Below are positions 7,152-24,010 of a stretch of DNA of 60,512 nucleotides, one piece after another (within the stretch, counting starts at the first letter, position 1; each line of letters begins with the position of its first letter). Under the pieces are notes generated by a model, which was not told the DNA's origin, searched no databases, and saw nothing but the letters and a program-made list of their open reading frames with translations. This stretch comes from an uncultured Candidatus Berkelbacteria bacterium (GTDB lineage Bacteria; Patescibacteriota; UBA1384; 2-12-FULL-50-11), in the NCBI GenBank assembly GCA_903839975.1, contig CAIMEH010000027.1, forward strand, positions 1-60,512, read 5' to 3'. Position numbers and translations under genes: made by a program.

Positions 7152-7202
7152 TTTATCTCGTTGTAATTACTTCCGGTTTCGCTATGAGAAGCGAGCTGGC
7201 GC

Positions 7203-7263
7203 AGCTTCGAACGGAAGGCGCAAGAAAAGTTATGATATTTTAAACTTTTTGCTGCGCCGAGCG
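7203..7263 (+). repeat. Family II hairpin repeat, copy A
   Basis: It starts agcttcgaacggaaggcgc and ends gcgccgagcg, the same ends as copies at 34,457-34,516 (minus) and 49,761-49,820. The outer stem ggcgc/gcgcc is constant. The inner stem here is aaaagtt/aactttt, different in sequence from the other copies but still paired. Confidence 0.8.
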
Positions 7264-7277
7264 CCTTATAATGCCAA

Positions 7278-7299
7278 CAGGTTAAAAACCTGATTTTTC
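7278..7299 (+). terminator. Rho-independent terminator after glyQS
   Basis: The hairpin caggtt/aacctg with an aaa loop is followed by attttt. The same hairpin, base for base, recurs at 7973-7994. Confidence 0.75.
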
Positions 7300-7357
7300 G
7301 TTGTATTGATAATAAATTTCATTGTAAACACTTTTTACCCGTTCCACGGGCAGTTTT

Positions 7358-7507
7358 TTGCAAAGGGTAGGGCTTCAGAGTCTTGAAGGCCAGCCCTTCC
7401 CTCTGCACTCCCACCTGGCCGTCGCCGCCACAGGCGTAAAGAGAAAATCCTGGCAAAATTTCCAACATTGAACTGTCGGCCAGTAGAAATTTTTTGGATT
7501 TTCAATT
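7358..7507 (-). repeat. Family I structured repeat, copy 1 (inverted)
   Basis: Read on the minus strand it matches the copies at 8337 and 45,313: an outer inverted repeat gaaaatcc/ggattttc around a conserved core (cagttcaatgttggaaattt), then cgcctgtggcggcg and a second hairpin. The second hairpin stem here is gcaaaggg..agggctt with its complement, while its sequence differs from the other copies. With the tail it spans about 150 nt between glyQS and a small gene. The rest of 7152-7585 holds copy A of family II, a terminator, and no gene that I can see. Confidence 0.82.
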
Positions 7508-7585
7508 CTATAAAGCCAAACTCTTGAAATCTGCAGAGAGAGAGTTAGATGGGGTTAATCACGAGTATTAGTTAAGGAGGCTTAA

Positions 7586-7870
7586 ATGGGAGTTGAACAA
7601 GGTGGTCCATCGATGGAAGACATGGGGCTGGATAAAGAAGCTAAGGAAATAAATCCAAAGCCCGTTGAGCTTACGCAAGATCAGAGAGACTTGCTGCTGC
7701 GCGGCGCTGAAGATCCTGATGTACAAAAATTGATCGAAGAGAAAGGGATAGCTGTTGGGGAGGGTAACCAGTTAGTTTCAGTTGACGGCAAAGAGTTCTC
7801 GATCAATACCAGCCCGGAGGATTTTGGCGTAAGGGTCGTTGAAGAAGCAAAAAATCCCAACATTCAGTAA
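7586..7870 (+). CDS. Small acidic hypothetical protein
   Basis: The 94-residue acidic, soluble protein (starts MGVEQGGPSMEDMG) has no membrane segment. A central helix (LTQDQRDLLLRGAEDPDVQKLIEEKGIAV) is followed by a short beta-rich stretch. A strong Shine-Dalgarno sequence, aaggagg, lies 7 nt upstream of ATG 7586, and a good terminator follows at 7893, so it is a well-defined monocistronic gene inside a repeat-rich spacer. No family is recognised. Confidence 0.75.
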   Translation: MGVEQGGPSMEDMGLDKEAKEINPKPVELTQDQRDLLLRGAEDPDVQKLIEEKGIAVGEGNQLVSVDGKEFSINTSPEDFGVRVVEEAKNPNIQ

Positions 7871-7921: not shown

Positions 7922-7972
7922 TTTGCGACTCGTTGTAATCATTACGGACTTCGTTGTATTGACTTGATTTAA

Positions 7973-7994
7973 CAGGTTAAAAACCTGATTTTTT
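7973..7994 (+). terminator. Second copy of the caggtt/aacctg terminator
   Basis: The hairpin is identical to 7278-7299 (caggtt, aaa, aacctg) and is followed by attttttcg. Both copies are followed by cgttgta, so the element is a duplicated unit longer than the hairpin. Confidence 0.7.
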
Positions 7995-8039
7995 CGTTGT
8001 ACTCACTTTCACTTTCGATGTAACGGCTTTTTTGGGATA

Positions 8040-8275
8040 TGGAAAGGGCCCGGTCGATACTTCGACTCGGGCCCAAAAGGGGGATTTCGCACAGGATCAT
8101 CGCCTGTCGGTCACTTACATATAAATGAGGTCTTTCCGGGTTAGTGAAGTAACAAGTTTCCCGGCCTCTTAAAGAAGATTTCGCATAGGAATCTTTCCTA
8201 TCGGCTGTTTACCCAAATAATAGGATGCTCCCAGGGATTTGAAACAGCAAGTAACCCCAGGTCCTTTAAACTAAC
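8040..8275 (-). ncRNA. Candidate ncRNA with two tandem pseudoknot modules
   Basis: On the minus strand two modules 94 nt apart share the layout: a stem whose loop has guuacuu plus a variable 4-6 nt segment, then guaa plus the complement of that segment, then ccga, a hairpin, and ugcgaaauc. In the first module cuguuu pairs with aaacag; in the second ucacu pairs with aguga, each crossing its stem to form an H-type pseudoknot. A strong promoter lies just upstream on the same strand (8282-8310). A GC hairpin (gggcccgagtcga/tcgaccgggccc) closes the 3' end. No minus-strand gene follows, so it is probably a free RNA. Known class not recognised; ends approximate. Confidence 0.6.
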
Positions 8276-8281
8276 AAAAGA

Positions 8282-8310
8282 ATTATCGCATATTTAATGC
8301 TGTTTGTCAA
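8282..8310 (-). promoter_or_regulatory. Sigma70-type promoter for the tandem-module ncRNA
   Basis: On the minus strand TTGACA (plus 8305-8310) is followed by a 17-nt spacer and GATAAT (plus 8282-8287). The -35 is perfect and the -10 has one mismatch. The expected start is near 8275. Confidence 0.75.
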
Positions 8311-8336
8311 TGGTCTAAGCCTGGTTTTTACCAACC

Positions 8337-8495
8337 GAAAATCCCAGAAATTTCCGTTGGCCGTCAGTTCAATGTTGGAAATTTTGCCAGGATTTTCACC
8401 ACGCCCCTGCGGGAAGCGTGCAGGGTAGGGAGTGTGAGGGTGTAGGGGCTGCCTCGCAATTAAGCCCCTCACCCTCACAAAAAGGGTGCTTGCAC
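8337..8495 (+). repeat. Family I structured repeat, copy 2
   Basis: It begins gaaaatcccagaaatttc and continues with ggccgtcagttcaatgttgg, sharing the core with copies 1 and 3, and ends aagggtgcttgcaca. The second hairpin has the stem gtgagggtg..ggggct with exact complement aagcccc..caccctcac. Its loop (cctcgcaatta) resembles the loops of the other copies although the stem sequence does not. Confidence 0.85.
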
Positions 8496-8526
8496 ATGAA
8501 TCAATGCCTTAATCTCCAAAACATTT

Positions 8527-8731: not shown

Positions 8732-9163
8732 ATGTTAATCGGGGAGTATCAGCACAGTATCGATACCAAGGGCAGAGTCGCCGTGCCGGCCAAGTTCCGA
8801 ACGGAGCTAGGCTCATCCGCGATTGTTACCAAGGGACTCGACTCGTGCCTGTTCTTATATCCTAAAGGTGAATGGGAAGTAATGGCTAACAAACTCGCAA
8901 ATTTACCGGTGTCCAGTTCTAATGCTCGTTCGTTTGCTCGACTGATGTTGAGCGGAGCGATGGAAGTGGAGATCGATAAACAAGGTCGTGCCTTATTGCC
9001 AAGCTACCTGCGTGAGTACGCAGGTTTAAATGGTGAAACAATAATGGCCGGCGTCTATAATCGTGTCGAAATATGGGATAAAAAAGCGTGGAAAGACTAC
9101 TCGAAGACCGCGGAAGCGAACTCTTCGGCTACGGCAGAAACGCTAACGGAGTGGGAGATATAA
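8732..9163 (+). CDS. mraZ: Transcriptional regulator MraZ
   Basis: The 143-residue protein has two SpoVT/AbrB-like MraZ repeats, each with the family signature: IDTKGRVAVPAKFR (residues about 10-23) and IDKQGRALLPSYLREYAG (about 80-97). MraZ is the conserved first gene of the dcw cluster and represses or activates it through upstream direct repeats; four such boxes lie at 8619-8652. ATG 8732 was chosen because it gives the canonical MLIGEYQHSID start. The stop overlaps the next small ORF (taATG). Confidence 0.95.
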   Translation: MLIGEYQHSIDTKGRVAVPAKFRTELGSSAIVTKGLDSCLFLYPKGEWEVMANKLANLPVSSSNARSFARLMLSGAMEVEIDKQGRALLPSYLREYAGLNGETIMAGVYNRVEIWDKKAWKDYSKTAEANSSATAETLTEWEI

Positions 9164-23981: not shown

Positions 23982-24010
23982 ATTATGGCATATTTTGTAA
24001 TAAATGTCAA
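23982..24010 (-). promoter_or_regulatory. Sigma70-type promoter for the 300-nt ncRNA
   Basis: On the minus strand TTGACA (plus 24,005-24,010), a 17-nt spacer and CATAAT (plus 23,982-23,987) make a near-consensus promoter. A plus-strand TATAAT at 23,966-23,971 could serve radA, so the two promoters overlap. Confidence 0.75.

Follow-up and report, generated by a model that had tools for sequence, protein, structure and literature searches.

Two plus-strand genes, one for a 94-aa protein (7586-7870) and mraZ (8732-9163), flank what looks like a real gene on the minus strand. It would specify a stand-alone, structured non-coding RNA of about 240 nt, confined to a narrow lineage. The locus, which is adjoined by a cell-division gene cluster, lies in a window (the whole stretch of DNA analysed) of 60,512 nucleotides from the 679-kb genome of an uncultured Candidatus Berkelbacteria bacterium. 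The RNA is composed of two modules, M1 and M2. To judge by base complementarity, each of them can fold into an H-type pseudoknot; downstream of this comes a hairpin with one bulged G, and AAAUC forms the tail. The first-pass annotation had read the locus as a stand-alone structured minus-strand RNA with its own promoter, and this is supported: no minus-strand gene follows for about 5 kb, and downstream about 5.1 kb separate the locus from the first ORF of 100 aa or more on that strand. Overlap of the candidate RNA with ORFs is limited to a 43-aa minus-strand ORF in the 3' part (7969-8100) and to two ORFs whose ends reach the 5' edge. The features of the locus are the following.

8282-8310, minus strand: promoter TTGACA-17-TGcGATAAT with extended -10 (TGc), 11 of 12 consensus positions
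8035-8276, minus strand: candidate non-coding RNA of about 240 nt (U-rich leader, M1, M2, terminator hairpin), placed by promoter and terminator positions
8171-8267, minus strand: module M1, 97 nt, from model and alignment
8222-8265, minus strand: predicted stem P2 of M1, AGGA+CC.GGG (8265-8256) with CCC.GG (8236-8231), a 5-nt bulge GAGCA (8230-8226) and UCCU (8225-8222)
8205-8247, minus strand: predicted pseudoknot helix of M1, CUGUUU (8247-8242) with AAACAG (8210-8205)
8177-8203, minus strand: predicted hairpin P3 of M1 and AAAUC tail, CGAUAGG...CCUAU-G-CG, bulged G at 8184
8077-8170, minus strand: module M2, 94 nt, retrieved by the M1-only model (E=3.5e-8)
8127-8168, minus strand: predicted stem P2 of M2, GAGG+CCGGG (8168-8160) with CCCGG (8140-8136), a 5-nt bulge AAAGA (8135-8131) and CCUC (8130-8127)
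8111-8147, minus strand: predicted pseudoknot helix of M2, UCACU (8147-8143) with AGUGA (8115-8111), 4 of 5 pairs double-changed relative to M1
8083-8109, minus strand: predicted hairpin P3 of M2 and AAAUC tail, CGACAGG...CCUGU-G-CG, bulged G at 8090
8041-8074, minus strand: terminator-like 12-bp GC-rich hairpin GGGCCCGAGUCGAAGUAUCGACCGGGCCC, then a short U run (UUUCC), from sequence and folding

The TTGACA-17-GATAAT promoter claimed in the first-pass annotation is present at 8310-8282, with a TGn preceding the -10 element as well, and transcription would be expected to start near 8275. Promoter sites with 11 of 12 matches occur 26 times in the 679-kb genome, and three sites (at least 11 of 12) also have the extended -10, namely that of the RNA locus and those at window position 24010 and C21:2346, each of which precedes another small-RNA candidate; no site of at least 11 of 12 with TGn appeared in 15 shuffles of the window. 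At the other end, the transcript is proposed to terminate near 8035, after the 12-bp hairpin. The U tract of this terminator is weak, and because it is short the terminator was missed by a pattern scan; the same GGGGCC-UUUCC ending is also found in unit B of contig C21.

The two modules were described in the first-pass annotation as sharing the invariant pieces guuacuu, guaa, ccga and ugcgaaauc, every one of which is present. In the alignment of M1 with M2, 57 of 97 columns are identical (59%), the distance from UGCGAAAUC to UGCGAAAUC is 94 nt, and the longest stretches common to both are CCGA and UGCGAAAUC, while the P2a and pseudoknot helices differ in sequence. With M1 as its only input sequence and P2 and P3 as its stems, a covariance model retrieved M2 as its sole other match in the 60.5 kb (45.7 bits, E=3.5e-8). 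The self-duplication score of the RNA is 62.5 against a shuffle maximum of 40.5 (above 60 of 60 shuffles), and among six small-RNA candidates in the genome a clear internal duplication is found in this locus only: each of the other five is equalled or surpassed in self-similarity by at least one of its own shuffles, and the six have no significant sequence in common. It is proposed that the modules arose by an old tandem duplication and diverged with their helices kept. Such a diverged duplication serves as an internal comparative experiment, in which one genome by itself supplies covariation evidence that an RNA is structured.

Three helices were read in each module: P2, the pseudoknot helix and P3. 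P2, which the first-pass annotation overlooked, is stem 1 of the predicted pseudoknot and a second covarying helix, with three of its four outer pairs differing on both sides between M1 and M2. The pseudoknot helix joins the loop of P2 to the strand directly before CCGA, and the hairpin P3, likewise overlooked, has a base built from CCGA and UGCG with one bulged G. The within-module complementarity of the pseudoknot segments that had been reported (CUGUUU/AAACAG in M1, UCACU/AGUGA in M2) is confirmed, with P = 0.012 for M1 and 0.107 for M2 by loop shuffles and a joint P of about 0.0012. The claim of internal covariation also holds, in that eight base pairs, pseudoknot included, have changed on both sides between the copies and are all still paired. 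Since P2 adds covariation, the predicted structure is better supported than had been claimed.

Several chance tests bear on these helices. For the 16 nested pairs, 31 of 31 cells hold standard pairs, a proportion that falls to 26-52% when partners are slid by 1-3 columns. When divergence was simulated free of constraint, 20 or more of the 21 pairs survived with P=2.5e-5 and eight or more double changes arose with P=5.5e-5, values that flatter the result because the pairs were picked after both copies had been seen. The less biased tests are the E-value of the M1-only model, the column shuffles with RNAalifold, the loop shuffles for the pseudoknot and an architecture descriptor. RNAalifold scored the M1/M2 alignment better than 999 of 1000 column shuffles (z=-4.5), its preferred nested fold being a different one, and a simple descriptor of the architecture matched no part of the window besides M1 and M2; genome-wide it gave one tandem pair, and in 600 kb of shuffled sequence nothing. 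Folding energy by itself does not reveal the structure: single modules folded with pseudoknots disallowed had energies no better than shuffles, and minimum-energy folds favour different stems. That the pseudoknot is the actual fold we infer, two copies being too few to confirm it; as the searches described below found no relative, all of the covariation comes from the M1/M2 pair of this one genome.

The statement of the first-pass annotation that the RNA matches no known class agrees with a search of Rfam 15 (4227 families), in which nothing exceeded the gathering score and permissive filters gave only unrelated matches outside 8035-8310. Elsewhere in the genome, tmRNA was located at C5:12441-12811 and RNase P RNA at C11:12411-13128 (L248); the latter match spans 718 nt for a model of 367 positions, which suggests that this RNase P RNA carries a large insertion.

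Relatives were sought with models and patterns. A mainly sequence-based model, R1, later replaced by R3, gave nothing below E=0.1 in 55 genomes of the class beyond the RNA locus itself, and R3 together with the invariant pattern returned, from 380 genomes of the phylum, the RNA locus alone or pattern matches without the hairpin. From the complete genome of a same-family relative (G001), both the sequence and the tandem architecture are absent; its twelve single architecture matches all fall within ORFs, with no tandem among them. When TGCGAAATC occurring twice was used as an exact pattern on genome contigs, at least 117 matches were obtained, and those examined for a hairpin and CCGA resembled coding sequence or unrelated repeats. 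No relative of the RNA was found in phage, plasmid and IMG/VR viral collections: one viral contig (L121) matched two patterns without the hairpin and carries an unrelated repeat, and in viral matches to the P3 pattern the rest of the module was absent. Within the genomes searched the modules are not conserved in relatives, an outcome that the first-pass annotation had counted against its own reading; the nearest of these genomes belong to other genera, so that the result shows a narrow distribution, not absence of function, and for the same reason the RNA may be confined to an unsampled genus.

The function tentatively preferred, with well under even confidence, is that of a trans-acting RNA that binds a protein and titrates or scaffolds this partner. 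Each domain would consist of an H-type pseudoknot (P2 plus the pseudoknot helix) stacked beside the bulged hairpin P3, with the AAAUC tail, and the two domains would bind one protein, or the two subunits of one dimer. Binding would take place through the parts common to both domains, namely ACUUG/GUUACUU in loop 1, the bulged G with CGA/UGCG of P3, and the AAAUC tail, and the bound protein would be titrated or scaffolded by the RNA. Protein binding is suggested because the short shared stretches are bulged or unpaired beside variable paired helices, as in a binding site presented twice. What has been observed is the two modules, their complementarity, the promoter consensus, the absence of a substantial ORF and the absence of an Rfam match; transcription, the pseudoknot fold and a protein partner are surmised. 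CsrB/RsmZ and 6S are protein-titrating stand-alone small RNAs with repeated binding sites; the candidate resembles them in its predicted stand-alone transcript and repeated sites, but here the repeats are whole pseudoknot domains, and no 6S or CsrB family of Rfam was matched. By analogy only, the tandem xrRNA of flaviviruses also has two tandem modules, each locked by a pseudoknot, whereas here there is no downstream RNA to protect past the terminator and the topology differs.

The main rival, rather unlikely in our estimation, is a stand-alone tandem ligand sensor, in which two riboswitch-like aptamers would set the termination or activity of the small RNA. Tandem riboswitch aptamers and riboswitch-controlled small RNAs of the Rli55/EutX type have similar domains in tandem, conserved unpaired residues and a terminator at the end, all of which can be recognised here; it is typical of aptamers to have pseudoknotted domains in tandem whose unpaired residues do not vary, and M2 has a C-rich end that adjoins the GGGCCC arm of the terminator. 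A sensor could also exploit mutually exclusive pairings, with an outer AAAGGA/UUCUUU competing with P2a AGGA/UCCU in M1 and AAGAGG/CCCCUU with GAGG/CCUC in M2; the outer pairing of M2, however, has an A.C mismatch while its P2a is intact. Unlike the Rli55/EutX-type RNAs, the candidate has no regulated gene and no known aptamer or riboswitch class, and with 5 kb of strand free of genes any readthrough would run only antisense into the 94-aa gene at 7586-7870. A cis-acting riboswitch was rejected, the RNA not being in the 5' leader of any regulated gene. A small RNA that pairs with mRNAs by means of loop 1, or of the segments rich in pyrimidines that follow AAAUC (UUCUUU, CCCCCUUUU), is unlikely: the loops would be exposed and the stretches are pyrimidine-rich and anti-Shine-Dalgarno-like, but complementarity to 289 translation-start regions was no better than that of shuffled RNA, and the covarying helices argue for a folded function. 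Quite improbable, too, is a decaying relic or by-product of repeat insertions that has lost its function. It would fit the failure to find relatives of the RNA and its position between dispersed repeats (7928-8035 and 8333-8496, with an inverted copy at 7355-7513), where related genomes have a pterin dehydratase gene instead; against it, eight double changes have left every helix intact, the promoter departs little from consensus and the RNA itself is outside the repeats.

Two further readings are given very little weight. The antitoxin RNA of a type III-like toxin-antitoxin system, with tandem pseudoknots binding a toxin nuclease, is brought to mind by tandem repeats with predicted pseudoknots, a strong promoter and a terminator behind them, as in ToxIN (PMC5086642). 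Type III RNA antitoxins (ToxI, CptI, TenpI) likewise carry H-type pseudoknot copies in tandem on one transcript with a terminator hairpin behind, the pseudoknots here resting on complementarity. In such systems the toxin gene lies directly behind the terminator that follows the repeats, and ToxI repeats measure 34-36 nt (PMC5086642), whereas the copies here are diverged (94-97 nt, 59% identical) and not short and near-identical, there is an extra P3, and no toxin gene stands behind the terminator on a strand that is empty for about 5 kb, so that gene order already fails and any toxin would have to act from a different locus. A search of the genome with PF13958 (ToxN) gave no match, control genomes being silent too. 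A pair of self-cleaving ribozymes appears just as improbable: the modules are compact, predicted to be pseudoknotted and of ribozyme size, and they match no ribozyme family of Rfam or known catalytic core even with permissive filters. The HDV ribozyme fold was mapped by hand and discarded, the strand before CCGA having no partner upstream of the outer helix. Of the first-pass proposal of a regulatory or catalytic RNA, the structured stand-alone part stands; nothing points to catalysis.

The M1/M2 RNA is one of several orphan small-RNA candidates in this genome. Another, of about 310 nt, is located at 23980-23665 of the window (minus strand) between recJ and radA; its promoter is TTGACA-17-TGcCATAAT (24010), it folds strongly, and its GC-rich terminator has UUUUU. 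It gave no Rfam match, and 54 genomes contained no real relative at the DNA level. Upstream of tuf, at C21:2587-2130 (minus strand; L269), two small-RNA units follow one another, both having a strong promoter and a terminator of their own; each has a long closing stem, which in the second is UGUUGUUCUG/CAGAACGACA, and a leader like that of the M1/M2 RNA, and neither matches Rfam. At C2:7694-7060 (minus strand; L250) there are two consecutive intergenic promoter-terminator units of about 280 and 245 nt, with no long ORF and no Rfam match. The RNA locus in this way draws attention to a group of orphan small RNAs encoded by only about 0.68 Mb, in a phylum whose regulatory RNAs are little described in the open literature searched. 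It is possible, on the doubtful side, that the M1/M2 RNA represents a class of pseudoknot RNA with two domains that has not been described before. Such an RNA would act by itself, as a sensor or as the ligand of a protein, and its lineage would be one in which a very small genome retains several orphan structured RNAs driven by promoters of unusual strength.

In the same-family relatives tested by Pfam, the gap from mraZ to glyS contains a gene for pterin-4a-carbinolamine dehydratase (PF01329) and lacks the candidate RNA; in the present genome the place of this gene is occupied by the 94-aa gene, the RNA and several dispersed repeats. The candidate RNA itself is single-copy in its own genome and outside these flanking repeats. 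The dispersed intergenic repeats (7165-7290, 7355-7513, 7928-8035 and 8333-8496 of the window) belong to at least three families with copies across many contigs of the genome, and the family at 8333-8496, with its inverted copy at 7355-7513, is partly palindromic. The 94-aa protein encoded at 7586-7870 is acidic, and its gene has a good ribosome-binding site and a terminator; it has no Pfam or PHROG match and no convincing relative among 54 genomes. At the start of the window, a LAGLIDADG endonuclease gene (194-757) is present inside the 23S rRNA, and the LSU match covers positions 1-1200 for 369 model positions, for which reason the 23S rRNA gene is probably interrupted by an intron.
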